Positions 2-20,356 of a stretch of DNA of 22,223 nt are shown here, piece by piece (the first letter of the stretch is position 1; each line of letters starts with the position of its first letter). Origin of the DNA: a virus. Under the pieces are notes generated by a model, which was given only the letters and a program-made list of their open reading frames with translations, did not search any database and had not been told where the DNA came from. The position numbers and the translations under genes were made by a program. Location: positions 1 through 22,223 of the IMG/VR virus record IMGVR_UViG_3300004448_001497. One strand, 5' to 3'.

Positions 2-3000
2 AGAATGATACCACAACTTCAAAGACTTTTTAGGAGTGGAAGATTTTCTAATTATAGATCTGCTGCTGATGTATTTGATGGTAGTTATCTTTCTGATCCT
101 GACCTAGAAGGTGCATTTACAATGGAAGATGGAATGAGAATAGGTGGTAGTACAACAGGAAACCTAGGAGGATTTCTGGGAAACACTGCTTTAAACTGGG
201 GGTATTCTGCAGGTATTATTTATCAGATAGCAGTGGAAGAAGTTATTGGTGCAGGCGTTGCTGCTTTAGCATCTGTTCCATCAGGTGGTGGTTCATTAGC
301 AGCATACGGAGCATTGACTTTAAAAAACTTAGCTACTCTTACCAGACTTCCTAAAACTATTATGAATGGTTTTAAGGCATCAGCAAATCTATTTAAAAAC
401 TTTAACAATATTCGTTACTCAAAAGATTTTTGGGATATAGCTAGAACAGGTGGAAATTTTACTGCAAAGCTTATTAGTCCTGAGATGGCACACACTATTA
501 AAAACTGGAAGACAACAGGTAATACTTTTCAAAATGCATATAACATAGGAAAAAATACTGAAGTGTTTGGTGCTTTTTATAGAGATATGAGGATGTACAA
601 TGCTGCATTAGCAGAGTCAAAAATGGAAGCAGGTTTAGTATACAATACTGTTTTAGAAAATGGAATGAGATATTCTAATTTTAGAAATAATGGTAATGGA
701 ATTTCTCCAGAAGAAATGACTAAAATTCAGACTGCTGCTTCTCAAGCTTCTTGGAAAACACTAGCACCTAATTTTGCATTGATTGCAGCATCTAACAGAA
801 TAGTATTTAAAAATGTATTTGGTAGTTGGGCAAAAAAACTTAATCAAGGAACTGCAACTACTTTAGCTAGAGTTTTAAGAAACGGACCAACTTCTTATAT
901 AAAGAAAAGCAAATGGTTACTTAAGTCTATTCCACAAGAAATTAAAGCAGGATTTAAAGTTGCATCATGGAAAGGTGCTGCAAAGACAACAGGTGGGGTA
1001 ATGCTAAGGTATGGAGCTAGCGGTATGGTAGAAGGGTTGCAAGAAGTATCTCAAGAAGCTATATCAGCAGCAACAGGAGGATACTATAGTGCTGTTTTAA
1101 GAGACCCTACTGCTGGTGGTAAATTATCAATGAGTGGATTTTATGGTGCCGCTGGTGATGAAATATTTACTAAACAAGGACTTGAAACATTTGCGTCAGG
1201 TTTTCTTATTGGTGGAATGATGGGGCCTTATCAACAGATTTTATTTGAAGGTATCCCTGCTATCTATAGTACAGTTAGATCTAAAGTTGCTAATAGTAAA
1301 AAGTTTAACCCAATGTTTGATCAAGAGATTGTAGATTATGCAAAGCAACAAAGAGAGACAGAGGAACAGATGATTGATGATGTTGTGGCACAAGCTAATG
1401 AAATGGGCACACAAGTTGAGCAGATAAATCTTATGCTTGATCCTGTTAAGATGAGTGCTGCTTTACAAGACCAAGCAGCTGGTATAGCTAATATGTCTAT
1501 TGCTTTAAATAGCAAGTATGATTATATGAACAATAGAAACTTTACAAGCTTTGATAACCTATACCATAAATATCAAAGAGGTTTGATGGGTATATATAAA
1601 GAAATGGTTACAGACTTTTCTAAAATGTCTGATACTGAAATAGGAGAAGCATTTAATAAAAAAGATTTTGGTAGAAACCCAGAAAAATTAAGAAACAAAT
1701 TTGTAGAAGAGCTAACTAGAATAAATGAATTTGGTGAAAGAATTGCTTCTAAAAAAACAGATAAATTATTTGAAGATAAAAAATTAGATTTAAGTGAATA
1801 TGATAAATCTAGCAAGGCTTATAGAGATGCTTTTTTTCATAACAGAGCTATAGATCAAGCTAAGATGTTGTATATATTTTCTAAAGAATCATTTCTTGAT
1901 GCTGTCAAAAGACAAATGGAAATTGAACAATCATTTGAAAATGAACCAATATTTACTAAACAAAAGTATGGTGATATAAGAGTTCTTTCTAATGCAGAAA
2001 GTATTAAGACTGAGATAGATCAACTTGATAAAGAACTTAAGGCCAAAGAAGATGCAGGTGTTCCAGCTACTGAACTTAAAAAAGACAAAAGGAAAAGAAA
2101 AGATTTAAAAAGATATTATGACATCTTAACTGATCCTAAAAACTTAACTAAGAAAGGTTTCTTTAATAGAGCTAAAACAAAATCAATTAAAGGTGCTTTA
2201 AAAACATATTTAAATGGTATTGCTGAAGATAAATCTGATTATGTAAATGAAGAAGTAATAGATGATGTGTTAAGTAAATTAATAGATCACAGCTCATTAC
2301 AAGAAGATGCATTTGCTTTTTCACAGACTGTTAATATTATGGCTAACCCTGAGGTTACGGCAGAGATAGTCCAAAGAAATGTAGAATATTTTGAATTTTT
2401 ATTTAAGAATAGAAAAGAAGTATATAGATCACAAACTGAGCAGTATATAAGTTCATTAAAGAAAAATGAATTAATTAATAACATAGCAGAAGAAGATGTA
2501 TATATGCAACCTGAATTAATCAGAGCATTTTTATCTGATGAAATTGGTTCAGCGGGTTTATTAGAAGGTTTAGTCAATGGGCAATTTAGTATAGATGGTA
2601 GAGCTATTGGAGGTGCATTAAATTTAGATGCAGATCAAGAACTTACTATGAAGTTGATTGCTTTTATAAATACCTATAGACTTACCAATGAGCTTGAACA
2701 GGATATGAAGGATGTTCAGGATGCTGTTCCTGATGAACAACAAATCAATGTTGAAGAACAATTAAAGGATGCTGATATTGATGACATCCAAATAGGAGAT
2801 ACAAGTAGATCACCAATTCTAAAAAGATTATTAGAATCTCAATACCGTAAATATAAAGAATCTGCATTTGATAATGCTTTAGAGTTTGCAGATTGGAGAG
2901 TATCTGAAGAAGGTGTTAGAATTAAAACAGCTTACGATGCTATAAAAAGAATATGGGGTAAGGGTTATCAAATTTTTGTAGTTGAGAACGGTGTTGAAGA

Positions 3001-6000: not shown

Positions 6001-9000
6001 AAAAGATGTAGAAGATTTAGATATATTTCTTGAATGGGCAAAATCTAATCTTCCAGAATTTATTAGAATAGGAGATATAGAAACATTAGGTAATAATTTA
6101 AAAGCAGGTGGCCTAAGAGTTGGTGCATTTGCTATGGATCTTGCAGCTATATCAGGAGGTCTTAGAACAGGGGGTACATTATATACTGGGGCATCAAATG
6201 GTTTTAGATATCATGAAGCATTTCATGGTGTATACCGAATGTTATTAACTCCTGCTGAACAGAAAAGTTTACTGCGTCTTGCTAAAACACAAAAGAGAGC
6301 ATTGCTAAGATTTCAAGGCAAAAGTATTGCAGTAGAACTTCAGAGGTTTAGAAACTCTGCAGATACATATACTAATATGTCTGATGTAGAATTAGAAAAT
6401 AGATATTATGAAGAGTATATGGCAGATGAGTTTGAGACATTTAAGAAAAGCCCTTCAAGCTCAAAAGCAGATACCGAAATTAAATCATTTTTTACTAGAT
6501 TAATTGAATGGTTTAAAAGAATGTTTAATTCATTTAATAAAAGTCAATTACTAACTTTATTTGAAAATATTGATTCAGGTAAATATGCACAAGCTTCTGT
6601 AGTATCAAATGATTTTACATTAGATACAAGTCCACAAGTTATTGTTGCTAATGCTATCCTACCTTATGAAGGTTTACAAGTAAATAGTTCTAAAGGTTAT
6701 TTGTATTTGGATAGTAACATTTCAAATAATTTAGTTAGTTCAATGGCAGCAAGTTATGTTGCTAGAAAAAATACTAACACTGATTCAGAAATAACTAATC
6801 AAGATATATTTGAAGATGTATTAGAAGACTTCACATGGTTGTATAATAAAACAAACCCAATCAATAGTAAATATAATTCTTCTGCAGAACCATCTAATGT
6901 GGCAGCAATAGAACAACTAGATAGAATACATGATGCATTATCATTTAATGCTACAGAAGATATTACAAAAAGTCCAATTTATAAATCAGTATTTGATGTA
7001 CTTGAGTTAATTGATGTTCAACAGAAAATTAAAGATGACAATATTGATCAGTATGAAAACACTGAAGGTTTAAGAAATGTAACTCAGTTTGGTAAAGAAG
7101 CATATATGAGTGGAGGCTTAGCATCATTACCAACATATCTAAGACAATACCTTTCTACTATAACAATGCCTTATACAGATGCGTTTGGTAATACACAACT
7201 AGAAAGTGGAGAAAAATTAATTGTACCTATAAATTCTTACAAGACTTATAATGGTATTATAAAGTCTGTAAAGAATGAGACAAGTCCTTTAGTTATACTT
7301 CAACGTATGTATATATTTAGTTTAAATAACTCTAATACTAAAGCTGCAGTTGAAAGAATATTTAATGATATTGGATTAGACTACCATAGTATTAGTGATA
7401 TATCAGAGTTACAATTACCTCAACAAATTAAAAACCCTACATTGTTTAATCAAATAACAAAAGGTTTTACAAACTATAAAGTTGATTGGTTATTCTTACA
7501 ACAAGATAATACTAATGAAGTTATTTCTTTCTCTGCAGCAGAAAGAGATGATACTCATACACAAAATGAATTGTGGAGCCAGGCTTATACTACTAAAAGT
7601 TTAAACTGGAAGATAAATCCTAAGACAAAAGATAAAGCATTAGAATCATTAGATGCTATTAATGATGCATTAACAGAAAGAAAAGAATATACAGATAGTC
7701 AATTGGATTTACTTTCAAGATCATTGACTGAAAATCTATATGATTCAGTTGGAATTAAACTGAGTCCTTTATATATGAAGTATAGTATATTATCTGCAAC
7801 AGGTCAAAGTAATAATGCAGCTCAAGACTATATACTTCAATACAATAGTGAAGCAGATGGAATGACTGCGGTGCAAGCCTATTGGATAAGAGATATTATA
7901 AATGCTGATGGAGATTTGTTTAACTCTGAAAATGATGGAGCAATTGCCAGGCTTAAAAGCTTAGCAATTAATAATGCTATTTTTGATGAGACAGTGGGTT
8001 TATCAGTATTTAGAGATGTAAATGGCAACTTAGTTAATGCTCATCAAAAACCTACATTTCATTTAGAAAGAGTTTTTGATTTAAATAAAGAAGCAGAAAT
8101 AGATAGATTAGCAGATGATGTATTTTTAGCTAATAATTATTTGTTAAACAACCTTGAGTTTTTAGATATGTCAGATGATAATATTCTAAAAATTCAAAGA
8201 CTTTCAGGGTTAAAAGAAGTTAAGACATTAGACAGAAGTGCTAATCTAGATTCATATCAAGATGGTGTAATAGGAACTACTGATTATGGTAGCTTTTCTC
8301 CTAAACAACTTTTGACAACAATGATAAACAATTATTTATTTGACTATAACTCTAGAAGTAATACATTTAAAACTAAGATGGATAAGGGTGCAGTTGCTCC
8401 TATTCTAATTAGGATAATGGAATCTTCTAATACAAATGATCAGATTTCATTGCCAATTATAAAGGCAATAAATGCAGACAGAAGTGATCAAGGTATTATT
8501 AGTCCTGAGTATATAAAAGAAATTTCTAATTTTGTAGAGAATGAATATAATAGAATTGTAAGAGAGAACAATGAAGAAGGAAATCTACCTTTACAAGAAC
8601 TTGTAACTAAAACAGGTGAGATAATTCAAATACCTAAAACAATTCCAGGTTATAATATACCAGATTCAGATGGTGTAATGAGAAAAAATCTTATGTTTAA
8701 TACAAAGGATTTGATTACTCAAGAACTTAGAGATTCATTAGAAGTATCTGCAACACAAGAAAACCCACCTTCATTTAAAAATGCACTTAAAGAAGCATTA
8801 GGCTCTGTACAGATAATAGAAGGAAGACCAACAAGTGATTATAGTAGAATCTTGGATCTTCAACTTAACATTAAGATTAATAATTTTCTTACGATGGTTG
8901 ACAATCTAGGTGTAGATAATAAAATATCTAGACTAATTGATAAAGGTTTACTAGATGGTGTTCAGGGTAAGGTTGCAGAACAAAAAGCAAGAGTAGCTGC

Positions 9001-12000
9001 TTTAAAACTTAATATAACAGAAGATAGAACTTACAACTTAAAGCAAATATTTTTAAATGATTACTTGAATACTAAATCATTAAACGAGTTGCTTTTAGGT
9101 GATCAAGCAATGATATTAGAAGATTCAATAAAACAAATTAAAAGAGCTAAGGGTCAAAATGCTGCAGGTGATAGTATATACTCACCAGTATCTAATCCAG
9201 AATTTGGTGTATTTGAATCTACTGAAAAATTAAATGCAATAATTCTTAAAGAGCCAACAATTAAATCAGAATTTAGTGGTAAAGATATAGACCGTTCTGA
9301 TGCACAGTTATATGTAACACCTAAATTTCATAGACATGCCCAAAATTCTTTAGGTAGTTTAACTAAGTTTGGTGCACAGATGCTAGATAAAATAGAAGGT
9401 GGACAGGAACTTACTGCTGATGAATTGTATGGACCTCAAGGTATGGCTAAGACTAATCAGATGTTGAACTCAAAAAAGTTTGTTTATTTTGATGGTAAAG
9501 TATATGCTAAATTTTCTTACATAACTTTAACAGAAGAGCTTACAGAAAACAATCCAGAACTTAGACAACTATATAGAGATATGGTAGCTATGGATAATGA
9601 ATATGGTGGTATTACTTTTGCTGGACCTGAGAGTGCTTTTAAAATGTTAAAAACAAATGTTCAGGCATTAGGAGATAATATTACACAACCTTCTATTCAA
9701 TTAGATGCAAAATATTTTAGAGAGCAAGTAAAAACAAAAACTAATAAAGATGAAATAACTGAGCAAAGTCAAATTAAAGCTTTAGCTACTTCTGAACAGA
9801 GACCTGACACACCAGTAAGCATAGAAACAAGACCTGATCTTAAAACTATAAAAGATGTAATAAGAGAGTATAATCTTAGTTTAGGTAAAAGAATAATTCT
9901 TAAGTTTAAAAATAAAAGAAATTTAATATATAGTTTTGAAGGTCTAATGCAAGATTTTGCTATTAGTTCTAAGAATAGAAACATAACACCGAACTTACAA
10001 GTTTTCTTAAAGTATGCATTAAACTCATTAAAAGCATCTAAGGCTAGTTCTAATCTTATGGAATTCTTTTCTATAGATGAGACTACTGGTGATGTTAAGT
10101 TTAACATTAACAATCCTATAAGTATAGCAAAAGCAGAACAGTTGTTTATGAGTTACTTTAGCAAGGGTGTGTTTCAAGAAAAAATTCCTGGACATGGTTT
10201 AGCACTAGTATCTGATAAAGGACACACCATACTTAGACGTATCTATAGTATGGAAAAGAATGGAAGACTAGGTAGAAATGAAGTTATAAGGGGAGCTGTG
10301 CCAGAAGGAGAAACAGTACTTGTACAAGATGTAGAAAACATGGGTGCTAATTACAAGTTCCCTTCTAATGGTAAAGGTATATTAGTAAGAGATAGATTAA
10401 GATATCAGTTGGCAGAATATAAAAACGGCAAACGTACAGGTCAATATTATAGTGAAGCAGTTATGCCTGCACACAGTGCTGATATATATAGTCAATTACA
10501 AAATAATTCTAATACAGTTATTCCTGACTCTGTAGGAAAAATGTTTGCTGTACGTATACCATCACAAGATAATCATTCAAGTATGAATGTTAAGCTCGTT
10601 GATTTCTTACCTGCTTACTATGGATCTTCTGCAATGTTTCCTGCTGAACTAATAGAAATATCAGGAGCTGATTTTGATATTGATACTGCTTATGTACAAA
10701 CAAAGGAGAGTTATTATGATAAAAAAACAGGAAAGTTTTATGCATACGGTGAAACACCAGGTAGGGGTTATTCTGATTATGTAAGATATATAAATCAAGC
10801 AGTAAACAAAGACACAGTATATTCTCAAGCTGTTTCTTCTTTTGAAAAACAAGGTAGTAAACTTGAAGATTCATATACAGATGCAGAGCTTATGGCTTCA
10901 GACTTTTCAGATAAAGCAGTAAAAGCAGCATCTAGATTAGGCTTACCTATTACAAAACAACAGTATATTAAATATGTTGATGAACGTGGTCAACCATATG
11001 AAGCAGCTTACAATAATGAAGTTTTAGATTATAAGTATGCGTTAATGGGTAATGAAGCAGTAAAAGATATTTCAGTAACTCCTGCTTCTCTAACTGCTAT
11101 TGAGAATGCGTATCAAGAACTTAAGAAGGCTGCTCCAGAATATGTAGCTAGATTAGATAATGAGAACATTGATGTAGATAGTATGACAGGTAAAGTTATA
11201 TCTTTTGAAGTTAATAAGGGTGCTGCTATTGGAAAGGCTGTATCACCAAATTTATATTTAAGTTTGTTGGGTGAATATGGAATAACTTTACCAAGTTCAT
11301 TAACATTTTCTTTACGTGGTATAAATTATTTTGGCTACGGTGCAGAAGTTAATTCTTATGGTAGCAGGATTCAAGATGAAATTTCATCTATTATAACAAT
11401 GCTTACAGATAACTCAAAAGAAAATTTTGTAGCAAAATTAGGCATGCATCCATCAGCTGTTGGACTTGCAACAAATGCAGTAGCACTTGGTATACCATTA
11501 ACTGATGCAGTATTTTTAATGAATGGTAAATTAGTCAGGGATTTATTTACTGAAGCTAATAATAAAATAGATAAGTTTGATGCAAGCTTTAAAACTTTAG
11601 TTGCAAGAAAACTTAGAGCATTAAAGAAGGTAGATGCATCTCCATCAGTATCATTGGAAACAATGACTAAAAGTGTAAATAGTCAAGCTTTAACTAAGGA
11701 AGAACAAAAATCAATACTATTAGTTCTAAATAATTTAAATACAATTTCATCTTTTACTGGAGCAATGTCTTCTATTACAGGAATGGCTGGTAATGGTATT
11801 GGAGCTAACTTTAGTGATGTTCAAAAAAGAGTGGATAGCTTTAGAACAATTGGTGTACTACCAGGTGATTCGGCCCCACTTATAGATATACAACCAATAC
11901 TAAAAAACAGTTGGGTAAAATCTAATATAGATATATTTAATCAAATAGCTTTTGACTTAATTCCTGCTACATTTATTACAGGAACACAAGAGTTTAATAA

Positions 12001-14578
12001 AATATATGCTAAAGTATCTAGAAATCTAAGCAAAAGTAAAATACAATTTACAGTTGAAGATCAACAAAAAGTAAAAAGAGATATGTTATCTTTCTTTACC
12101 ATACAAGCATATATGCAGAAGACAAAGTCATCTGAAGTAAAAGATGGAGCAACTCTCTCTAATCAATTAATATATCCAAACAGTTTTGACAATTCTATAT
12201 ATACTGCAATTAAAAGATTAACATCAGCTGATAAGGGTAATTTCTTTTTAGAAAATTTTATTACTATGCTTCCTATGTTTTCTGAAACAAACAATACAGG
12301 TATGAATCTAATTCAAGCTAATACTTGGAGAAGTTTAGACAAAGACCAAAAGCTAGATTTACAAACTTCTTTTTCAAAGTTATACGGAAATCCTTTATTA
12401 AGAAAAGATGCTATGACTATAGTAAACTATTTAATGGTTAAGGATGGTCTGCAGTCTGCTAGGGGAACTTTACTAGATGCTATTTCTCCATTTGTAATGG
12501 ATGAATATCTACAACAAATTAACAATGTTAATGAAGTCTTTTTAACTAATAAAGGTTGGTTAGAAACATTTGGAGCTGAACGTAATGAGCTAGTTAAACA
12601 ATTTGAAGATGGTTATTTTAGATCTGCTTCAGTAAATTCTAAAATTAATACAATAACTTATGATTTAATAGAAATAGGTGGAATACCAACTATGGGCTTT
12701 AACCGTCAAGGTTATAGTATGAAAAAGATAGAAGGTACTAAAGCAGGTGTTACTTTAGAATATAAACTATCTGAAGAAGAAATTGCAAAAGTAGACCGTA
12801 GAGTTGATGAAACAAGCCTTACTAAATTTATAAATGTTGTTGATGTTATATCTAATCCTATAGATGCACAATATTCCTTTTTTGAGCTAGACAGTATTAC
12901 TGAAACTAAAGCTGTTTATATAAAAACAGAAATGCAAGGTTCTTACTATCAAAATGGAATAGGTTTTATGTTTGGGCCAAGACCAAGTACTCAAGAAAAT
13001 AGAACCAATATAAGAAACAAAGGTGATATGAGAACTGCGTATGCTGCTGATCAATTTGACAGTATGAATTTTGAAGATTTTGCACCACCTCCAAACACTA
13101 TACAAAATCAAGCATTAGCAAATGAGAATGCAACTGTAGAAGCTACAGAAAATGAAATCAATTTTACAGCAGAAGATACAAGTAAAGCTGTTAATATTGC
13201 AGATATAGATACATTAAATAATTTATTAGGGATTGGTAAACCTAGTGAAACAAGACAAATGCAATTTGGAGAAGCCCGAATTAGTCTATCAACAGTTGAT
13301 GGTAAGTATGATGTACAACATAGTGAATTTGGAGCACTTACTGAATTTGGTCTAGATACTTATGAAGAAGCCGTAGCAATTGCCAAACCATTTGCAGAAG
13401 AGGCTGAAGTACAAACTAGTGAAGTTGCTAATAAATTAAAAATCATTTCAGAAAGAAGAGCTATAGCTACTAAATCTGATTTACAAAATTCTCAATTAAT
13501 AAAAGATATAAGAGTAGATAAAACTCAACCTAACGCATTAACTCCTAATGCTGCAGATAATAAATTAGCTGCTATAATGCTTTATGGAAAAACCTATGAT
13601 ACATTAATAGAAGAAGGCTTACCAGAAGAAGCTAATGAAGCAAAAACCTTAGCTTATAGAATATTGAATGATTTGATGTTTGATATCAATGAAATAGAAG
13701 AATACATGGATGTCATGACTCCCGAATATGCAGGTGTATTAACTACTAATGAAAACCCAGTTAAAGAGTTTTTTGAAAATGATATATTTGAACAGGCTGA
13801 TAAACAATTAACACAACAAACTAGTGGGGTTGAAATATCTTCTAATGCTAAAGGTTTAGCAGCAGCGCTTACTAATCCTACGGAATTAGCTAAGTCTAAA
13901 GGTAACCTTGCAGAGTCCTACCCTATAACTTTTAATGGTAAAAACTATAAAGATGTTGAGGCAGCTTATCAGGCATTAAAAGATAAGTCTGAAGCTAGGA
14001 CTAAACCTACTAAGGAAAATAGTGATAACTATAAGTTGATGGTAGATTTAATATCAGCTAAATTAGAGCAACACCCTAGGTTAGTTTCTTCAATAATTGA
14101 ACAAGGGGGTGTTGCTTGGATAAGTTCTTCTACTCACCAACCTACTAAACAAAATACAGTTTGGGAAACGGGTGGTCAAAATTGGTTTGTTGAATCTTTA
14201 GCTGATGCTTTTGACACAACGATTAAGAAAAGGAATTTGACTGAAGCAGTACAAACTAGTGAGGCTGTTGAAGATGAAGCCACAGGTATTGTTGATGCAC
14301 AAGAAAATATACCAACACCTACGGAAAAACAAGCACAACAAATTCAATTGTTTGATGAAGAGATTAGTAATCAATACCCTATCATTACTTCACTTTATAA
14401 TAGTATCTTTGAAACTCCTGGTGTTAATGTAGAGGCAACATCTCAAATAGAAGCACTAGAAAATAACAACATAGATTCTTTAGAAGCTATGATAGAGTTA
14501 TATAATAGCCCATTAACAAACTTTGAATCTGAAGAAGATTTTGAAGACTATGTTAAAAAATGTATATTAGGAATTTAA
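2..14578 (+). CDS. Giant virion RNA polymerase polyprotein, crAss-like (5' partial)
   Basis: Likely a virion-packaged, ejected RNA polymerase that transcribes early phage genes. The first Met is at base 5, but the frame is open to the window edge and the first residues look internal, so the N-terminus is probably missing; at least 4,857 residues. Visible order: Gly/Ala-rich hydrophobic patches (about 60-110 and 330-410), charged helical regions (about 430-950), a zincin-like module with HEAFH (2070-2074), and a polymerase core with R3517-I-P, S3525-S-M and the loop D3556-F-D-I-D3560. An acidic linker follows at about 4330-4405, then small C-terminal modules including a NADAR-like one (about 4610-4745). 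The DFDID loop matches my recollection of phi14:2 gp66 (about 2,200 residues), so this protein is more than twice as long. Only one cysteine is present, C4853. The next giant gene lies 9 bases downstream in the same frame. Polymerase assignment is strong; packaging and the other roles are inferred. Confidence 0.85.
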   Translation, partial: RMIPQLQRLFRSGRFSNYRSAADVFDGSYLSDPDLEGAFTMEDGMRIGGSTTGNLGGFLGNTALNWGYSAGIIYQIAVEEVIGAGVAALASVPSGGGSLAAYGALTLKNLATLTRLPKTIMNGFKASANLFKNFNNIRYSKDFWDIARTGGNFTAKLISPEMAHTIKNWKTTGNTFQNAYNIGKNTEVFGAFYRDMRMYNAALAESKMEAGLVYNTVLENGMRYSNFRNNGNGISPEEMTKIQTAASQASWKTLAPNFALIAASNRIVFKNVFGSWAKKLNQGTATTLARVLRNGPTSYIKKSKWLLKSIPQEIKAGFKVASWKGAAKTTGGVMLRYGASGMVEGLQEVSQEAISAATGGYYSAVLRDPTAGGKLSMSGFYGAAGDEIFTKQGLETFASGFLIGGMMGPYQQILFEGIPAIYSTVRSKVANSKKFNPMFDQEIVDYAKQQRETEEQMIDDVVAQANEMGTQVEQINLMLDPVKMSAALQDQAAGIANMSIALNSKYDYMNNRNFTSFDNLYHKYQRGLMGIYKEMVTDFSKMSDTEIGEAFNKKDFGRNPEKLRNKFVEELTRINEFGERIASKKTDKLFEDKKLDLSEYDKSSKAYRDAFFHNRAIDQAKMLYIFSKESFLDAVKRQMEIEQSFENEPIFTKQKYGDIRVLSNAESIKTEIDQLDKELKAKEDAGVPATELKKDKRKRKDLKRYYDILTDPKNLTKKGFFNRAKTKSIKGALKTYLNGIAEDKSDYVNEEVIDDVLSKLIDHSSLQEDAFAFSQTVNIMANPEVTAEIVQRNVEYFEFLFKNRKEVYRSQTEQYISSLKKNELINNIAEEDVYMQPELIRAFLSDEIGSAGLLEGLVNGQFSIDGRAIGGALNLDADQELTMKLIAFINTYRLTNELEQDMKDVQDAVPDEQQINVEEQLKDADIDDIQIGDTSRSPILKRLLESQYRKYKESAFDNALEFADWRVSEEGVRIKTAYDAIKRIWGKGYQIFVVENGVEETRLKVPTQQQLNSEQGFQEFLDSKIAREEPLIQDVLNALDLNMDIFTTVNVPSARSVKPPVQGVGFDIVEIQTEGGSFYKIVDKKGGNLTQAQLDVISTDIQETGTYTDLSKAKRLLNILDKEVSDGRVFIFDGKQLSKGMSVYDRNTGEEFRINSSDNTGGIISLVPTEFYINDYKTRYNNSKPESELDFFTRYELEKLTFDTLPTNAYKLYSDRLSKVYPASLFTEPKGSLTPKQRYQYIVNALSPEDFQNIIVDFKVNNRERPDDFDDRYKGGPESIPNSYIRTQTERFTVELKLNKDATVRINNALAAQNIPMMEGRLLDKEGQGTIGFIPNDTLYFIDGNGKVVTPGTMTVDYAKNVIIPANSDQGMEAAIQQVAADFGKQAVLISFANEMIDSDQTVGTLGEGLKIIRNEGIPAYNKANNPEIPLNKLSQKTTVNGDIIIYDISRDAAGNMKGSPIVRSNLSGSAKLELAARIKLKLEDSQLWDKMISGDKTGKNGGYTDRYIMPIEQPGGLMTLATAKAINIEEGVVSEMMNDLLQQASLAAVENKTTKNGKSVIKDKGYNDKFHLDFIEKYGKFFISGPKGTNVTIDVAPDGALRADLFNKYTGKKGKVFYEKKAQQKENTPLGHMEQFFTDIINSPVGSTVGIESLTIANFRKSLPLDATIDTMMEDLVTKLAPEIRVGQSIGFEANSSSLKAAEDKGIFLARPRTELEHDSSKRVTDTESRREDPARERARAITNLGDKLTQEATDVALNEGSSMVSIVSSWLKTEEGSLDNQTAEESASKFALIYNRKNPVAGEDNRSVAEIIQDNKSLTPGQRKDNAGQAGADLFNTIAQGISVRETILNEIKNQTLSLKPNNEVTDDVFFAFVDDNLSEVQKTELVQSIGQKIIAGTELSAREQDIRTALKDQIENYLTGSVNAEQKNDIDLTLIAQTPIDAINNQIAERESEISEQVGEKKKVRALRKDKIYQDLLKQREKIIGPANKILSPRLSKKDVEDLDIFLEWAKSNLPEFIRIGDIETLGNNLKAGGLRVGAFAMDLAAISGGLRTGGTLYTGASNGFRYHEAFHGVYRMLLTPAEQKSLLRLAKTQKRALLRFQGKSIAVELQRFRNSADTYTNMSDVELENRYYEEYMADEFETFKKSPSSSKADTEIKSFFTRLIEWFKRMFNSFNKSQLLTLFENIDSGKYAQASVVSNDFTLDTSPQVIVANAILPYEGLQVNSSKGYLYLDSNISNNLVSSMAASYVARKNTNTDSEITNQDIFEDVLEDFTWLYNKTNPINSKYNSSAEPSNVAAIEQLDRIHDALSFNATEDITKSPIYKSVFDVLELIDVQQKIKDDNIDQYENTEGLRNVTQFGKEAYMSGGLASLPTYLRQYLSTITMPYTDAFGNTQLESGEKLIVPINSYKTYNGIIKSVKNETSPLVILQRMYIFSLNNSNTKAAVERIFNDIGLDYHSISDISELQLPQQIKNPTLFNQITKGFTNYKVDWLFLQQDNTNEVISFSAAERDDTHTQNELWSQAYTTKSLNWKINPKTKDKALESLDAINDALTERKEYTDSQLDLLSRSLTENLYDSVGIKLSPLYMKYSILSATGQSNNAAQDYILQYNSEADGMTAVQAYWIRDIINADGDLFNSENDGAIARLKSLAINNAIFDETVGLSVFRDVNGNLVNAHQKPTFHLERVFDLNKEAEIDRLADDVFLANNYLLNNLEFLDMSDDNILKIQRLSGLKEVKTLDRSANLDSYQDGVIGTTDYGSFSPKQLLTTMINNYLFDYNSRSNTFKTKMDKGAVAPILIRIMESSNTNDQISLPIIKAINADRSDQGIISPEYIKEISNFVENEYNRIVRENNEEGNLPLQELVTKTGEIIQIPKTIPGYNIPDSDGVMRKNLMFNTKDLITQELRDSLEVSATQENPPSFKNALKEALGSVQIIEGRPTSDYSRILDLQLNIKINNFLTMVDNLGVDNKISRLIDKGLLDGVQGKVAEQKARVAALKLNITEDRTYNLKQIFLNDYLNTKSLNELLLGDQAMILEDSIKQIKRAKGQNAAGDSIYSPVSNPEFGVFESTEKLNAIILKEPTIKSEFSGKDIDRSDAQLYVTPKFHRHAQNSLGSLTKFGAQMLDKIEGGQELTADELYGPQGMAKTNQMLNSKKFVYFDGKVYAKFSYITLTEELTENNPELRQLYRDMVAMDNEYGGITFAGPESAFKMLKTNVQALGDNITQPSIQLDAKYFREQVKTKTNKDEITEQSQIKALATSEQRPDTPVSIETRPDLKTIKDVIREYNLSLGKRIILKFKNKRNLIYSFEGLMQDFAISSKNRNITPNLQVFLKYALNSLKASKASSNLMEFFSIDETTGDVKFNINNPISIAKAEQLFMSYFSKGVFQEKIPGHGLALVSDKGHTILRRIYSMEKNGRLGRNEVIRGAVPEGETVLVQDVENMGANYKFPSNGKGILVRDRLRYQLAEYKNGKRTGQYYSEAVMPAHSADIYSQLQNNSNTVIPDSVGKMFAVRIPSQDNHSSMNVKLVDFLPAYYGSSAMFPAELIEISGADFDIDTAYVQTKESYYDKKTGKFYAYGETPGRGYSDYVRYINQAVNKDTVYSQAVSSFEKQGSKLEDSYTDAELMASDFSDKAVKAASRLGLPITKQQYIKYVDERGQPYEAAYNNEVLDYKYALMGNEAVKDISVTPASLTAIENAYQELKKAAPEYVARLDNENIDVDSMTGKVISFEVNKGAAIGKAVSPNLYLSLLGEYGITLPSSLTFSLRGINYFGYGAEVNSYGSRIQDEISSIITMLTDNSKENFVAKLGMHPSAVGLATNAVALGIPLTDAVFLMNGKLVRDLFTEANNKIDKFDASFKTLVARKLRALKKVDASPSVSLETMTKSVNSQALTKEEQKSILLVLNNLNTISSFTGAMSSITGMAGNGIGANFSDVQKRVDSFRTIGVLPGDSAPLIDIQPILKNSWVKSNIDIFNQIAFDLIPATFITGTQEFNKIYAKVSRNLSKSKIQFTVEDQQKVKRDMLSFFTIQAYMQKTKSSEVKDGATLSNQLIYPNSFDNSIYTAIKRLTSADKGNFFLENFITMLPMFSETNNTGMNLIQANTWRSLDKDQKLDLQTSFSKLYGNPLLRKDAMTIVNYLMVKDGLQSARGTLLDAISPFVMDEYLQQINNVNEVFLTNKGWLETFGAERNELVKQFEDGYFRSASVNSKINTITYDLIEIGGIPTMGFNRQGYSMKKIEGTKAGVTLEYKLSEEEIAKVDRRVDETSLTKFINVVDVISNPIDAQYSFFELDSITETKAVYIKTEMQGSYYQNGIGFMFGPRPSTQENRTNIRNKGDMRTAYAADQFDSMNFEDFAPPPNTIQNQALANENATVEATENEINFTAEDTSKAVNIADIDTLNNLLGIGKPSETRQMQFGEARISLSTVDGKYDVQHSEFGALTEFGLDTYEEAVAIAKPFAEEAEVQTSEVANKLKIISERRAIATKSDLQNSQLIKDIRVDKTQPNALTPNAADNKLAAIMLYGKTYDTLIEEGLPEEANEAKTLAYRILNDLMFDINEIEEYMDVMTPEYAGVLTTNENPVKEFFENDIFEQADKQLTQQTSGVEISSNAKGLAAALTNPTELAKSKGNLAESYPITFNGKNYKDVEAAYQALKDKSEARTKPTKENSDNYKLMVDLISAKLEQHPRLVSSIIEQGGVAWISSSTHQPTKQNTVWETGGQNWFVESLADAFDTTIKKRNLTEAVQTSEAVEDEATGIVDAQENIPTPTEKQAQQIQLFDEEISNQYPIITSLYNSIFETPGVNVEATSQIEALENNNIDSLEAMIELYNSPLTNFESEEDFEDYVKKCILGI
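6167..6559 (+). other. Zincin-like metalloprotease domain inside the giant polymerase protein
   Basis: Residues about 2055-2185 carry the zinc-protease motif H2070-E-A-F-H2074. About 60 residues later comes an acidic helix E2136-E2137-x-x-A-D2141, which could supply the third zinc ligand as in gluzincins. An aromatic amphipathic helix follows (FFTRLIEWFKRMF). Zincin-like modules are known in giant proteins of crAss-like phages and in polyvalent injected proteins. Possible roles are self-processing of the giant chain or cleavage of a host protein. The motif is seen directly; activity is inferred. Confidence 0.6.
9602..11530 (+). other. RNA polymerase core region with DFDID metal-binding loop
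   Basis: The loop GADFDID has D3556, D3558 and D3560 at bases 10670-10684. It corresponds to the NADFDGD loop of the beta-prime subunit and to the DLDGD-type loop of QDE-1-like polymerases. Upstream, R3517-I-P...H-S-S-M3527 mirrors the beta-prime pattern RxP-x-LH-x-x-SM, which precedes the metal loop by a similar distance. FAGPESAFKM (around K3213) and SQIKAL (3255-3260) lie where the first double-psi barrel is expected. TDNSKE (3801-3806) downstream resembles a conserved block of crAss-like polymerases, possibly near the bridge helix. The outer edges of this region are approximate. Confidence 0.8.
13404..13422 (+). repeat. Direct repeat copy 1 in polymerase C-terminal linker
   Basis: CTGAAG followed directly by TACAAACTAGTGA. 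It encodes QTSE (residues 4470-4473) at the boundary between a small module with the pattern TYEEAVAIAK and a helical module. Copy 3 has the same two blocks with a three-base CAG between them. Confidence 0.6.
13816..13826 (+). repeat. Direct repeat copy 2 (core only)
   Basis: The 11-base core ACAAACTAGTG, encoding QTSG (residues 4605-4608), in the same reading frame as the other copies. It lies just before the NADAR-like domain. Only the core is shared, so this copy could be coincidental. Confidence 0.45.
13832..14239 (+). other. NADAR-like domain at the C-terminus of the polymerase polyprotein
   Basis: Residues about 4610-4745 follow the order of landmarks of the NADAR/DUF1768 (YbiA-like) fold. 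YPITFNGKNY then E4652-A-A-Y-Q-A-L-K4659 matches the family pattern PI-x-x-GK-x-(Y/W)...SEHxxQAxK. LISAKLEQHPRL (K4686, Q4689-H-P4691) matches AKFEQHxxL. VWETGGQNWF (W4720 to F4728) matches the final W-G-x-G-x-N block. NADAR enzymes hydrolyse N-glycosidic bonds, including ADP-ribosyl-guanine on DNA. The His of SEH is replaced here (EAA), so the domain is divergent and activity is uncertain. A role reversing host DarT-type modification of phage nucleic acid is a hypothesis. Confidence 0.5.
14241..14262 (+). repeat. Direct repeat copy 3 in polymerase C-terminal linker
   Basis: CTGAAG-CAG-TACAAACTAGTGA, copy 1 with a three-base insertion, encoding QTSE (residues 4750-4753). It sits immediately after the NADAR-like domain and before the acidic C-terminal tail. 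Confidence 0.6.
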
Positions 14579-14587
14579 TAGAGAACC

Positions 14588-17500
14588 ATGAGCAAATGTC
14601 ATAATAAAAATACAGCAGAATACCAGTCTCTAAAACAAGAGTATGGTACAGATGTAGTAGTAGGAAATGTAATTGATCAGTATCAGAACTTTACTAAGAC
14701 AAACACAATACCTACTGTTGCAGAAGCAATAGAGTTTCTTAGCAATAAGCAAACCTTATATAACTTAAAGCAATTAGACTTTGGTCAATCACTATTAAAC
14801 AATCTTAGGAGACTTAGTATTATACACAGCTTTCAAGGAAAGTATTTTATAAACAACACTGATCAAGCAACATTACAACCAAGTGATGACTTAGTAGAAT
14901 CTAATAGAAGAAGATTAGAAAAATACTTAGAGATAAATAATATACCAATTAACTCAGTTGAAATAAAAAAAACTCCAAAAACTTATTCTGTAAGGATAGA
15001 TAGTACAATATTTAGCCCAAAGGACATGTTAGAAAAATCTAGATCATGGGACTTTCCTAGAACAAGACATGTTGTTATGCATTTAATGAAGTTAATTCCT
15101 GGTTTAAATGTGTCTTTGAAATCTGTTAGTGAGGCAGAAAAGTTATATAATGACATACCTCAATGGAGAAAGTCTAGAGTTCCTTTTAGTGAAATTAATT
15201 CTTTTTATGTAGAAAACAATGTAATCCTAATAAAAGGAAGAGTTACTGATGAGGTAGCAATAGAGGAAGTATTGCATCCATTTATTGAAGCAGTTAAGTC
15301 AAGTAATATAAGTTTATATGAGGGCCTCTTAGCAGAAGCAGCTAAAGCATTTCCTGAAATGAAACAACAGATTGATGATGCCTATAATAGTAATAGAGGC
15401 ATTGGTGCTGACGCAAGAGAGATGGAGTTGATTACACAAGCATTAGCAAGACACTTTAAAAAAGAATATGAAGAAAGTCCTACGCAAAGTTTTATGGATA
15501 AAGTTCTTCAATTGTTAGAATGGTTATCAACAATAATCAAAAACTTAAATGAAGTAATAACCGGTAGAACTATTAATATAGATAACATCTCTGAAAGAGC
15601 TAGCTTATCTGATATTGCTAAATTGTTAAATACAACAGGGATAGTATTTAATATAGATACATTACAGACTAACGGTAAGGTAATGTATAATTTATCTCCT
15701 AAAAAAAAGAAAGTTATAGATGAAGTAAAAGCTAAGTCTAATGAATTTCAAAAACGTATTATTGATAGGCTAACACATAAAGTAAGTGAAGCTAAACAAG
15801 AATCTGATACGTTATCTGTTAGTGCAGGACCTGAAAGTTCTACACAAAACAGTGATCCTTTAGTTATTTTAAATAAAAAAGATGGTAAATTTTATAATCT
15901 AACTGATAGAAAGCAAGTTATAAAGTCTACGTCAGACGTTGTTGGTAGGAAGCAAGACAGTCAGAAAACTATAGAAGTTAAGCAAGATGTAAGTTTAATG
16001 TTAGATGCAATAGCAATAGATCAATCATTTGAAAATATACAAGATCAACTTGTTGGCTTAACACCAGAGTTTGCTCAGCAAGCTTTTAATAATTTGGTAG
16101 AGGAACTACAAACAACAATGAATGCTACTGATAGAATGTTAACTAACGTAGTGTTTTATGATCAATTAACTGACACAGCTGGTATTGCCGATGTGGTTAT
16201 AATAAATAGAGTAGGTCACTTTAAGATACTAAAACTACAAATTAATGAGTCTAATGTAATGTCTAAAAATCCAAAAACATGGATTAAAGGTGTATTAAAA
16301 AATGATTTAGAAAAGAGTTCATACTATCAAGATAAAGTAGATTTGCAGGAAGGTAATTTATTAAAGGATGATAAGTTAAGTTTATCTGTACAAGATCAAG
16401 TAGAGGTAGGACTTGTTAGAAGAATGGCAGAAAACCAAGGGTATGATATTGTTTATGGAGATGATGCTTTACAAAGCTTAATATTAAGTTATAAAGGAAA
16501 AGCATTACAATTTCATGGCCATATAAATCATCCTCAATTTCAAAATGCAGATAAAGTAGATGGTATCATTCCATATTCTGTATATACAATATCAGATGAT
16601 GAAGTTGATAAACTATCAAAAGATTTAGAGGAAGGCCTTTATGATGTAGATGAAAAAAATTTAGAGCTAGAGACTATGGCTGAGCAAGTGGATCCATCAT
16701 TATATCCTGCTGAGAGTACTATTTCAGTTGCATTGAGCTCTTATTACGAAGCTATAGTAGATGAGGCAAGAGTTAGAGAGATGACTGAAGCAAATATTTT
16801 TAGTGATAGATCAGCTGCAGATCATAGAGAGACAATTGCAAATACATTATCTTATATAACTGTTGCAAAAGCAGAAGGACCAGTTGCTCAGTCAGTAGCA
16901 TATACAAAGCTATTGAGAGATGCTCTTAAAGAAATGCAAAAGTTTGAAGCTTATGTAATAGATCCACAAAGTATTGTTAAAGATCCTAACTATGTTAAGT
17001 ATGTAATGAACTTTAATCAATTCTTAACTACGTTTGATGGTTTATATCTTATAAAAGATAATACAGATATTAATGCAACTCAAAGATCTTTAATAAACCA
17101 AATTAATATTCAGTTAGTTAGGTTACTTGGTGCACCTACTATCAAAGGTAATGGTCAAGGAGAAGGATTAATAAATCAAGCTTTAATAAACTATGTTTTA
17201 GATTTGTCTAAATCACTATCACAAGATGGAATGAGTCAAGACAAGAATAACATATTACAGTCACATAGTGGTAAGACATTTACTGTAGAGGATATTGAGG
17301 ATTTAATAAAATTAGTTCCTGATGTAGACAAAGCAGAATTGTATTCAAAAGATCTAGCAACATCAGCAGATTTTTTATTAGGTACAATGGATAAGATATT
17401 TAAGATTAAAAGAATTGAATTCCTGGATAAAGTAAAAGCTAGGGAAGAGAATCTTAGAAAAGCTGGTGCATCACTTTTAACTTTATCATCTGAAAAAGAT

Positions 17501-20356
17501 CTCCAAAAGCTTTATGACTTTATGTTAGAGTTTGATGAAGAGGGTAACTTTACAGGACTATATACTCAACGTATAGGTCAACAATATTTTTCAGAAAAAA
17601 CAAGATTAAGAGACGAACTGTATGATATAAATGGTAAGCCATTTCATTATAGACCTATCTTCTCTATAATAAATGCCAAAGAGAGTGACTTAAAGTATAA
17701 TAAAGAACTTTACTTTAAGAAAAAAGCTTTTGGTGATTTTATGAATGCTGAGTCATATGAAGATGGTCAATTAAATTCTGGCAAATATCACAGGTATACA
17801 GATGAGTTTACAAAGGTAAGAGCAAAATGGGAAATCTTTCAACCTTGGTCTAATGGTGAAGGAGGTAATTGGATAAAGAAACCAGGAACCAACAAGCAAG
17901 CATATGAATCATATAGAAGAAAGTATTATCAAGAACAACCATATACAAAGATGTATAAGGATGCTAGCAAAAGACCTACTGGTGTTATTCTAGAAAATGA
18001 ATCATTCCCCTCTGTCAGACCTGACTTTGTTGAAGTTAAAGATAGTTTTATTGATGTTGATGGATCAGTGAAGTCATTATTAAATCCTAAGTATAATGAT
18101 ATAATGAATCCTAAAGATGCGTTAGGACAAGCAAGAAAAAATTTCTATGATATTTTTGTAAAAGACTATGAATCATTACTAGATAAACTACCTAAGTCAG
18201 TTAGAAATAAGATGCTAGGTAAAGTGCCTATCATTAAAAATAATTTGGTAAAAGATCTATTAGAGAAACCTCCTGTAGTGACTAAGCTTTTACCTAGATT
18301 GGTGAGAAACTTTAGACAGTTTTTTACTACAACTGCAACACAAAGAATTGTACAAGTAGATAATGATGGTAACTTAATTGATACCTTACCTGTATACTAT
18401 ACTGGTTCTGCTTCTGTTGACTCAGATTTAGAGCAAGTCCAAAATCAAATGGAGGAGCTTAGACAAGAAAGAAAAGACAATAAAATTACATTAGGTGTTT
18501 ATGAAAAAAAGAGAGCGGCTTTAGAAGCACAATTTGCTGCATTAAGAACTAAGCCTACAAAGGGTCAACTTGAAAAAGATTTAACAAAGAGTTTAATCAA
18601 GTTTAGTACTATGGCAGAAAACTTTGAGGCAATGGGAGAAATAGAAGACTCACTAAAAGCTATAGTTAAAGTAATAGAGATGAGAGATTATCAAGCTCCT
18701 GGTGCAACTACTTTAGTTGGTAAACTATATGACAAAGCTAAAGGTTCAATAACTAAAGAGGTAGGAAAAAAGAATTATGACGGCTTGCAAAGTAATGCAG
18801 CTAGAAGAGCTCATCACTATATGAAAATGACATTTTATGATAATGATAGGATGACACAAGGTGCTGTTGAAAAAACAACAAATCTATTAGTCAATGCTTC
18901 CTCTTTAGCTTATGTTGCATTTAATGTTTTTGGTAACTTTAATAACCTTACTATTGGACAAATAAATAATGCTATTGAAGCAATGGGTGGTTTATTTTTT
19001 ACTGGTCAAGGATATAAAAGAGCACAACAAGATTTTGCAGTTACAGCTACAAGGGGTATAATACAAAGAACTCCAGAATCAATAGGGGACTTTGCAGATT
19101 TTACTACTAGGGTTGCTACATTAAATAGTGTCAAGTTAAAAAAAGCCAATTATGATATAAAGAAACCTTTGTCTTTATATGAGTGGTTATCAGACCATTA
19201 TTATATGATGGATGATAGTACAGATATTAGAGAAACGTTTAGTGGTAGAGAAGATACGGGTACGGTATGGGAAAGATTTACAAGCTTTGGTTATTCATTT
19301 AATCAAGGTGCAGAATACTATGCACAAAGTACTATAGGTCATGCTATACTATATAGTACATTCTTAACTAATGGAGATGAGACTTTAAGTATACGTGAAG
19401 CATGGGATTGGGATGCAGCAACTCAAACAGCCAAACTAAAAGATGGCTTTGATACTGTTATAGATAAAAGAACAGGATTTACGCAACCTTATAATGATAA
19501 CTATAGAGCACGATTAAGAAATAGAATACGTGAAGTAAATAAACAGATACACGGTAACTATGCCAGAGAAGATAGAATGGTAATTCAAAATAATTTCTTA
19601 GGTATATTGATAGCTCAGTTTCACAAGTGGGTAATGCCTGCATTTAGAGCAAGATTTCAACAACAATACTATGATCAAAATTTAGGATGGCTTGAAGGAA
19701 GATACTTGTCTTTTATTAAATTTGGTAAGTATATGACTGGTGTTAGTAAACATGGTACAAGAGTATTACAAGCTCAAGGTATGGGGTCTATAGGTAAAAA
19801 TTTGGGAGCAGGATTTAAAGAAGCTTATGGTTATTCTGAAAATCTTAGTGGTGAAGAATTCTATGATGATAATAAAGCAAATATGCTGCTTAAAAATGTA
19901 TATAGAACATTAGGTGAAGCATTTTTGGTAATGAACTTATTTCTATTAAGTAATTTATTTGAAGGTGCTGATGACGATGATGAGGGTATAGAAAGAAAAC
20001 TTAAAAACTTTATTGCATATACATCAGTACGAGCAAGAAAAGAAATGGTTATGTTTATTCCAATACCTGGACTTGGTGGTTTTCAACAAATGTATCAGAT
20101 GGCAAAGACACCAATTGCATCTACAAGAACATTAGGTGAGTTAGGAGAAGCATTAGAACTTACAGTACAGACTCCAGTCAAATGGTTATTTTTAAGCGAT
20201 CAAGAGTTTATGCAAGACAGTAGTATTGTTTATCAAAACAAACCTAGAAAAGGACAATTAAAGATGGCAAAGAATTGGTTTGATGTTTTGCCTTTATTGT
20301 ATTCAATACAAAAGTATTTTTCTTTTGAAAAGAATGATGATTTTTATATTAAATAA
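14588..20356 (+). CDS. Giant virion/ejection protein with degenerate enzyme domains, crAss-like
   Basis: A 1,922-residue protein, probably packaged and ejected with the polymerase protein. The ATG follows the previous stop by 9 bases (TAGAGAACC) in the same frame, so translation is probably coupled; no clear ribosome-binding site is seen. It begins MSKCHNKNTAEY, a C-x-N-K-N start I recall from other crAss-like giant proteins. Residues about 195-325 are zincin-like but have E226-E-V-L-H230 in place of HExxH. Residues about 450-640 resemble a PD-(D/E)XK fold with a lost active site. A charged helical region spans about 1310-1400 (MEELRQERKDNK). Near the C-terminus is a hydrophobic stretch (about 1776-1791) followed by an acidic DDDDEG patch. 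C4 is the only cysteine. Exact role unknown; it could be part of an ejection conduit or a polymerase partner. Confidence 0.75.
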   Translation: MSKCHNKNTAEYQSLKQEYGTDVVVGNVIDQYQNFTKTNTIPTVAEAIEFLSNKQTLYNLKQLDFGQSLLNNLRRLSIIHSFQGKYFINNTDQATLQPSDDLVESNRRRLEKYLEINNIPINSVEIKKTPKTYSVRIDSTIFSPKDMLEKSRSWDFPRTRHVVMHLMKLIPGLNVSLKSVSEAEKLYNDIPQWRKSRVPFSEINSFYVENNVILIKGRVTDEVAIEEVLHPFIEAVKSSNISLYEGLLAEAAKAFPEMKQQIDDAYNSNRGIGADAREMELITQALARHFKKEYEESPTQSFMDKVLQLLEWLSTIIKNLNEVITGRTINIDNISERASLSDIAKLLNTTGIVFNIDTLQTNGKVMYNLSPKKKKVIDEVKAKSNEFQKRIIDRLTHKVSEAKQESDTLSVSAGPESSTQNSDPLVILNKKDGKFYNLTDRKQVIKSTSDVVGRKQDSQKTIEVKQDVSLMLDAIAIDQSFENIQDQLVGLTPEFAQQAFNNLVEELQTTMNATDRMLTNVVFYDQLTDTAGIADVVIINRVGHFKILKLQINESNVMSKNPKTWIKGVLKNDLEKSSYYQDKVDLQEGNLLKDDKLSLSVQDQVEVGLVRRMAENQGYDIVYGDDALQSLILSYKGKALQFHGHINHPQFQNADKVDGIIPYSVYTISDDEVDKLSKDLEEGLYDVDEKNLELETMAEQVDPSLYPAESTISVALSSYYEAIVDEARVREMTEANIFSDRSAADHRETIANTLSYITVAKAEGPVAQSVAYTKLLRDALKEMQKFEAYVIDPQSIVKDPNYVKYVMNFNQFLTTFDGLYLIKDNTDINATQRSLINQINIQLVRLLGAPTIKGNGQGEGLINQALINYVLDLSKSLSQDGMSQDKNNILQSHSGKTFTVEDIEDLIKLVPDVDKAELYSKDLATSADFLLGTMDKIFKIKRIEFLDKVKAREENLRKAGASLLTLSSEKDLQKLYDFMLEFDEEGNFTGLYTQRIGQQYFSEKTRLRDELYDINGKPFHYRPIFSIINAKESDLKYNKELYFKKKAFGDFMNAESYEDGQLNSGKYHRYTDEFTKVRAKWEIFQPWSNGEGGNWIKKPGTNKQAYESYRRKYYQEQPYTKMYKDASKRPTGVILENESFPSVRPDFVEVKDSFIDVDGSVKSLLNPKYNDIMNPKDALGQARKNFYDIFVKDYESLLDKLPKSVRNKMLGKVPIIKNNLVKDLLEKPPVVTKLLPRLVRNFRQFFTTTATQRIVQVDNDGNLIDTLPVYYTGSASVDSDLEQVQNQMEELRQERKDNKITLGVYEKKRAALEAQFAALRTKPTKGQLEKDLTKSLIKFSTMAENFEAMGEIEDSLKAIVKVIEMRDYQAPGATTLVGKLYDKAKGSITKEVGKKNYDGLQSNAARRAHHYMKMTFYDNDRMTQGAVEKTTNLLVNASSLAYVAFNVFGNFNNLTIGQINNAIEAMGGLFFTGQGYKRAQQDFAVTATRGIIQRTPESIGDFADFTTRVATLNSVKLKKANYDIKKPLSLYEWLSDHYYMMDDSTDIRETFSGREDTGTVWERFTSFGYSFNQGAEYYAQSTIGHAILYSTFLTNGDETLSIREAWDWDAATQTAKLKDGFDTVIDKRTGFTQPYNDNYRARLRNRIREVNKQIHGNYAREDRMVIQNNFLGILIAQFHKWVMPAFRARFQQQYYDQNLGWLEGRYLSFIKFGKYMTGVSKHGTRVLQAQGMGSIGKNLGAGFKEAYGYSENLSGEEFYDDNKANMLLKNVYRTLGEAFLVMNLFLLSNLFEGADDDDEGIERKLKNFIAYTSVRARKEMVMFIPIPGLGGFQQMYQMAKTPIASTRTLGELGEALELTVQTPVKWLFLSDQEFMQDSSIVYQNKPRKGQLKMAKNWFDVLPLLYSIQKYFSFEKNDDFYIK
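15170..15562 (+). other. Degenerate zincin-like domain (EEVLH)
   Basis: Residues about 195-325 have the local layout of the zincin module in the upstream giant protein: a strand (NNVILIKGRV), a helix with E226-E-V-L-H230-P, an acidic downstream helix (E278-M-E280) and a closing helix LQLLEWLSTIIKNL. The first zinc-ligand His is Glu here, so normal HExxH zinc binding is not expected. It is probably a structural remnant or a binding module. Confidence 0.5.
15935..16507 (+). other. Degenerate PD-(D/E)XK nuclease-like domain
   Basis: Residues about 450-640 contain GIADVVIINRVGHFKILKLQ (532-551). This has the layout of the core hairpin G-x-x-D...(D/E)-x-K, with D535 in place of the first acid. 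The second position reads K549-L-Q551 where (D/E)-x-K is expected. The following helix with VQDQVEVGLVRRMAENQGY matches the Gln-containing helix that closes the fold. The fold resemblance is moderate, and nuclease activity looks lost. Confidence 0.4.

Follow-up and report, generated by a model that had tools for sequence, protein, structure and literature searches.

Paired terminal cysteines mark the breaks between cysteine-poor virion RNA polymerase cargo proteins of crass-like phages and suggest head-to-tail disulfide coupling

The window analysed here is a 22,223-nucleotide stretch of viral DNA (IMG/VR record IMGVR_UViG_3300004448_001497) that encodes two giant proteins, P1 and P2, in the same orientation. 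The cargo proteins of this family are named after their PhicrAss001 counterparts as A (gp47-like), B (the polymerase, gp50-like) and C (gp49-like); P1 corresponds to A+B and P2 to C. The features of the region are as follows.

5..14578, + strand: P1, predicted fused A+B virion RNA polymerase cargo protein (gp47-like plus gp50-like), assigned by blastp and to the AB class by HMM
6212..6226, + strand: HEAFH zincin-like motif in the A part of P1, residue 2070, from the HMM families for A
10670..10684, + strand: DFDID metal-binding catalytic motif of the two-barrel, crass-type RNA polymerase, P1 residue 3556
14324..14575, + strand: P1 C-terminal helical domain of about 84 residues predicted by AlphaFold2, ending in EDYVKKCILGI
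14561..14563, + strand: TGT codon of C4853, the sole invariant alignment column and proposed upstream partner in a P1–P2 disulfide
14588..20356, + strand: P2, predicted C cargo protein (gp49-like) of 1922 aa, assigned by blastp and by tblastn to Crassvirales RNA polymerase subunits
14597..14599, + strand: TGT codon of C4, invariant in 14 homologues and proposed downstream partner in the disulfide

The P1 frame comprises 4857 codons within the window, and its N-terminus is lost at the contig edge. Because residue 3 of P1 aligns with residue 166 of a complete relative in genome G002, approximately 163 N-terminal residues are absent, the ATG at base 5 lies inside the gene and the true P1 would be about 5,020 residues long. 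The combined length of about 6,780 residues given in the first-pass annotation therefore holds within the window (6779) but not for the intact proteins.

BLASTP analysis of P1 showed matches to both PhicrAss001 gp47 (E 7e-8, around HEAFH) and gp50 (E 6e-14, around DFDID), and since both align to P1 it is read as a fusion of two cargo proteins that are separate in PhicrAss001. P2 matches PhicrAss001 gp49 (E 2e-19). The sequence ISGADFDID at P1 residue 3556 fits the G[SA]DFD[IV]D context and lines up with eight crass sequences. In phi14:2, the homologue of B is gp077 (PDB 6VR4), a DNA-dependent RNA polymerase of the same two-barrel type that also carries DFDID. Relatives of P1 and P2 found by tblastn in the phage collection are distant only and nearly all crass-like. 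Close relatives are found in IMG/VR on contigs that reach 101 kb, among them the 101 kb contig G001, whose P2 is 83% identical and which has PHROG matches to head, portal and terminase proteins. The features of a crass-type genome (about 90–105 kb, with major capsid protein, portal, terminase and a nearby cargo block) were found in the relatives, in G001 by its length and PHROG matches and in G002 by its gene order, the window itself being a 22 kb fragment. Scans of P1 and P2 with Pfam and PHROGs gave nothing useful, and a sequence comparison of the P1 polymerase part with PDB chains gave zero matches. Foldseek analysis of a P2 N-terminal model did not provide a solid match in the PDB; low TM-score matches were obtained to virion proteins of Cellulophaga, Tenacibaculum and Flavobacterium phages. 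Judged by sequence, P1 and P2 are virion RNA polymerase cargo of a crass-like phage and new members of an already known protein family, and by analogy with their homologues they would be present in virions and delivered through the tail.

Two further features were noted in these proteins. Relative to the G002 homologue, P1 contains an insertion of roughly 340 residues (about 4409–4749; window about 13229–14251) that is not recognised by Pfam. Part of it (4603–4769) matches different positions in two loci of the survey described below, the tail end of the upstream piece in L319 and the interior of B in L313, and the insertion may be a mobile cargo domain. The P2 sequence EEVLHP (residues 226–231; window about 15263–15280), near the N-terminus, shows E226, E227 and H230 unchanged across 14 homologues and could represent a degenerate zincin-like motif.

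P1 and P2 together contain two cysteines in 6779 residues (0.03%), one at residue 4853 of 4857 in P1 and the other at residue 4 of 1922 in P2, which confirms the count made at first reading. The expectation of dozens was also sound: codon-position base composition predicts about 60 TGY codons in P1 and 24 in P2, or 84, and the rate in the other proteins of G001 (309/25,657, or 1.20%) predicts 81, at which rate the Poisson probability of two or fewer is about 1.6e-32. The neighbouring frames are not depleted, as had been stated, with four cysteines in the holin-like frame and a CSSC ending in the nrdA fragment. A distance of 36 nt separates the two cysteine codons (about 14561 and about 14597), which flank the P1 stop and the P2 start. 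By simple arithmetic, two cysteines placed at random would have a probability of about 4e-6 of both falling within ten residues of the P1/P2 boundary and on opposite sides of it.

Base composition, codon usage or a generally low cysteine content of phages, without any selection linked to ejection, is a very improbable source of this depletion. The high A+T content of the genomes and the scarcity of cysteine in several capsid proteins (major head protein 0/539, portal 2/919) speak for it, but the same-genome rate is 1.2%, and TGT and TGC are common in the remaining frames of the P1 and P2 DNA. Cysteine content also drops sharply at the edge of the cargo block within one gene block of G002, where six consecutive proteins with 4 cysteines in 10,683 residues come right after a 33-cysteine virion protein. 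For the cargo block, this explanation is already refuted by the within-genome comparison. The protein that directly precedes the G002 block (L352; G002:C1 10808–17263) is a virion structural protein of 2152 residues.

Depletion tracks ejection in other phages. The ejected proteins of N4 (vRNAP, gp51 and gp52) contain no cysteine in 4294 residues, those of T7 (gp14–16) one in 2261 and those of P22 (gp7, gp20 and gp16) none in 1309. These proteins enter the host envelope or cytoplasm and are essentially cysteine-free like those of the window, but they lack coupled pairs of terminal cysteines; no sequence homology is claimed. The five cargo proteins of PhicrAss001 proven by mass spectrometry have 7 cysteines in 7478 residues, compared with about 1–1.4% in its other proteins (84/8418 in the remaining virion proteins and 136/9689 in the gp51–gp96 set, which is mostly replication and metabolism). 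The cargo of phi14:2, in which gp079 and gp080 were counted by position, has 6 in 6411, against 32/6591 for virion proteins outside the cargo that were confirmed by mass spectrometry and 66/5649 for a non-virion sample. Outside this comparison, the virion polymerase subunits of phiKZ have one cysteine in the N-terminal 1052 aa of gp178 and two in the 490 residues of gp180. The giant virion two-barrel RNA polymerase of Thermus phage P23-45 (gp96; PMC10770324) has none in 5002 residues; it differs in being fused to the tape measure protein of a siphovirus, and the low cysteine background of the whole phage makes its depletion weaker evidence.

The proposal that near-total avoidance is specific to ejected proteins stands in part, being favoured by the sharp boundary in G002 and weakened by the cysteine-poor head and portal proteins. 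That all homologues share the depletion did not hold, as some relatives contain 10–39 internal cysteines in the B chain. Seven B chains (L036, L041, L044, L054, L125, L131 and L158) have 17–39 internal cysteines and keep the expected terminal cysteines, the C-terminal one of L036 lying at position −27; avoidance is possibly relaxed in anaerobic or gut habitats. Cysteine depletion in cargo is thus common and not obligatory. As a means of predicting ejected proteins, which had also been suggested, it has the merit of recurring in unrelated phages and is nevertheless imperfect because it is neither confined to ejected proteins nor universal in their homologues.

One reading of these counts, in line with the first-pass annotation, is avoidance only: ejected proteins purge cysteine because a stray disulfide would hinder their unfolding, passage or refolding, and leftover cysteines are tolerated at flexible ends. 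It accounts for the depletion in N4, T7, P22, crass-like and P23-45 cargo. That reading overlooks the conserved leftover cysteines at matched protein ends; beyond the avoidance of disulfides, the rule is probably to permit exactly these.

In PhicrAss001, where A and B are separate and not fused as in P1, the leftover cysteines lie at C2339 of 2341 in gp47, at C5 and C2404 of 2412 in gp50 and at C5 of 1349 in gp49, which has one internal cysteine besides. The terminal peptides are CNS for gp47, ICGANTLYEL and CITTNSTIEELAAK for gp50 and CAIIPQVR for gp49. Phage phi14:2 encodes three separate chains with two cysteine junctions, where the window has one junction; these proteins, confirmed in virions by mass spectrometry, have cysteines at C1797 of 1797 (gp078), at C3 and C2179 of 2180 (gp077) and at C3 (gp076). 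Junction cysteines are also present in p-crAssphage, crAss002, cr3, cr11, cr85, cr116, cr118, cr128 and Dulem virus 41, as well as in a Leptolyngbya phage outside Crassvirales. The annotated B gene of cr116 appears to be interrupted near the DFD motif, and the next ORF of 833 aa has the cysteine end. The annotated start of crAss002 gp33 (L018:21242–33979) is apparently wrong; an internal start gives MSCTPSN, similar to the MSC of other Intestiviridae.

The final 457 residues of P1 were aligned with those of 11 homologues (12–26% identical), and the cysteine is the sole invariant of 897 columns; the N-terminal invariants of P2 in 14 homologues are M1, C4 and N6. The residues flanking the junction cysteines vary freely, with lysine frequent just ahead of the C-terminal cysteine. 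AlphaFold2 predicts a small helical domain (pLDDT mostly 85–94) for roughly the final 80 residues of P1, behind a long stretch of pLDDT below 50, with the cysteine at the end of the last helix.

Four scans of viral contigs produced 260 loci with the polymerase motif, of which 141 are distinct at 98% and which form 109 clusters at 60% core identity; these represent one broad viral lineage and one cyanophage, and the locus statistics are not independent events. A terminal cysteine was scored within the last ten or first ten residues. Where B and C are split, B has a C-terminal cysteine in 103/105 loci and C an N-terminal cysteine in 102/105 at the 98% level (75/77 and 74/77 respectively for the 60% clusters). 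The C-terminus of C itself carries a cysteine in none of 83, and none of the 16 B–C fused proteins has one at its C-terminus. Where A and B are split, A ends in a cysteine in all 20 cases and B begins with one in 18 of 19. Terminal cysteine as ordinary background is ruled out, since other ORFs of at least 250 aa at the same loci have it at 17–19% for each end compared with about 98% at cargo junctions. The internal cysteine rate is 0.84% in these background ORFs and 0.087% in B.

The A–B junction was also examined with a neighbour test free of family models. It is preferred over the zincin-based assignment of A because the latter flagged a clade whose break precedes the zincin-like domain. When B has an N-terminal cysteine, the upstream neighbour ends in cysteine in 51/56 loci, and when B lacks it, in 0/18 (Fisher 4.6e-13; 41/45 versus 0/16 and 2.4e-11 for the 60% clusters). 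In the L289–L346 group, the break lies upstream of the zincin-like domain, which here is part of B, and the cysteine pair sits at the shifted break; the upstream piece of L319 in this group matches P1 residues 252–844. The triple fusions have no cysteine in 5642 aa (L061), a single internal C1323 (L107) and none in L081, which is open at the 5′ end.

Nearly all exceptions to this pattern are misannotated starts, frameshifts or cysteines at −11 or −27, each resolved individually. The cysteine lies at −27 in L036 and −11 in L336; in L041 and L083 the cysteine comes after an internal start; L102 and L103 have a frameshift after MKCPN; L053 has an extended N-terminus with cysteine at residue 20; and L069 has a frameshift within a fusion. 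The sole unexplained exception is L118 (L118:2–17477), in which the B end has no cysteine, a 730-aa ORF intervenes and the downstream C gene starts with MAC. At the level of sequence, cysteines are present at both sides of split junctions, absent from the outer ends and gone after fusion. Translational overlap that would force the junction cysteine codons is ruled out, because the A and B genes of PhicrAss001 are on opposite strands.

This pattern bears on avoidance alone, since mere tolerance would not be expected to give near-universal cysteines at the B–C break or the only invariant residue of the P1 end, nor would it empty the outer C-terminus of the chain and the fused proteins. The N4 and P22 ejection proteins, moreover, have no terminal cysteine. 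Avoidance only is quite unlikely, and the evidence already speaks against it as a complete account. A relic of protein splicing or of a polyprotein, in which the junction cysteine is left from split-intein or ligation chemistry, is barely credible. The cysteine does resemble the +1 cysteine of inteins, and introns and inteins have been reported in crass-like polymerase genes (PMC7886860), but the N-terminal cysteine follows a methionine and a few residues behind its own start codon, leaving no space for an intein piece, and the opposite strands of PhicrAss001 A and B also argue against it.

The preferred reading, which is given a probability of roughly 0.64 and is drawn from sequence comparisons, is that disulfides tie split cargo head to tail into a single threadable chain and that cysteine is purged elsewhere. 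The C-terminal cysteine of each cargo protein would bond to the N-terminal cysteine of the next, namely P1 C4853 to P2 C4 in the window and gp47 to gp50 to gp49 in PhicrAss001. The cargo would be threaded N-terminus first and at least partly unfolded through the portal, tail and envelope, and the coupled gene products would be ejected as a single train of fixed order and stoichiometry. The purge would keep stray disulfides from knotting or cross-linking the cargo, and, other thiols being scarce, links could form only from end to end, which would make the linkage unambiguous. Gene fusion would be the peptide-bond equivalent, and fused junctions would need no cysteine because the peptide bond replaces the disulfide. 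We infer that the junction pairs are disulfide-bonded in virions and released by reduction, which could take place in the cytoplasm. The more specific picture of a covalent daisy chain, with up to three giant proteins joined by single disulfides, threaded serially and uncoupled by cytoplasmic reduction, is held at somewhat better than even odds.

Several observations are consistent with disulfide coupling. PhicrAss001 gp47, gp49 and gp50 were detected in virions by mass spectrometry and are proposed to exit partially unfolded through constrictions under 50 Å, N-to-C ejection has been proposed for gp45 and disulfides are present elsewhere in the virion, in tail, hub and portal-vertex proteins (PMC10172136; Bayfield et al., whose samples included both reduced and non-reduced ones). 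The head-to-tail order A-B-C matches the natural fusions AB, BC and ABC and is compatible with the ejection direction proposed for gp45. If disulfide-joined cargo is ejected as a single thread, then the chain rule, its replacement by fusion and the A-B-C order are what one expects. The N4 vRNAP, a single chain without coupled terminal pairs, has no cysteine at all.

Other observations count against coupling. The cargo of PhicrAss001 is mostly unresolved in cryo-EM (PMC10172136). A B protein that carries a cysteine at each end could close into a ring or form concatemers, and dimers of A or of C are conceivable; coupling needs partners that are positioned beforehand so that B avoids pairing with itself. 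The disulfides would have to arise in a reducing cytoplasm once assembly is complete, or else after lysis. The up to 39 internal cysteines in the B chain of some relatives weaken the idea that only these links can form, and in L118 the B end has no cysteine although the C gene starts with MAC. Noted separately, thioredoxin-like proteins are encoded by several crassviruses (p-crAss gp37 and gp39, L019:11056–12323; cr128, L025:17453–17698) and could be relevant if the cargo is redox-coupled.

A different chemistry of the terminal cysteines is unlikely. They might share a metal ion, serve as a co-packaging tag, form homodimer disulfides or act as a thiol in polymerase assembly in the new host, and the same terminal rule would fit, as would the confidently predicted helical domain that bears the C-terminal cysteine and the lysine commonly found ahead of it. 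A single cysteine per side would be a poor metal site, however, and the profiles show no second conserved ligand adjacent. Homodimers or a tag do not predict the cysteine-free C-terminus of C, the loss on fusion or the shift with the break.

No earlier description of the cysteine rule at the breaks, or of the coupling it implies, was found within the literature covered. The string "cystein" is absent from the full texts of the PhicrAss001 structure (PMC10172136), a Crassvirales review, the DEV, N4 and P23-45 papers and an ejection-protein review, subscription papers including that on the phi14:2 polymerase being outside this scope; a literature search on cysteine in ejection proteins gave nothing relevant.

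These phages deliver several RNA polymerase proteins of 150–550 kDa in a set order, and the channel measures less than 50 Å across. As to how, the cysteine rule, which applies to over 100 divergent loci, tracks breakpoints and is lost on fusion, offers a directly testable answer, and the homologues in cultured gut and marine crassviruses allow the test to be made on cultured phages. It can also be used to work out which phage proteins, though separate, are delivered in a single chain and what their order is, and it provides a sequence signature of ejected proteins common to unrelated podoviruses. If true, the disulfide chain would be a second way, besides gene fusion, of translocating proteins in order, and one that is redox-reversible. 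To our knowledge, such a coupling mechanism, if confirmed, would be without precedent.

Between the cargo genes and the holin, the window encodes an additional ORF of 132 aa (20441–20839) with a signal peptide and a lipobox-like LSCG motif, the product of which is likely a phage lipoprotein.
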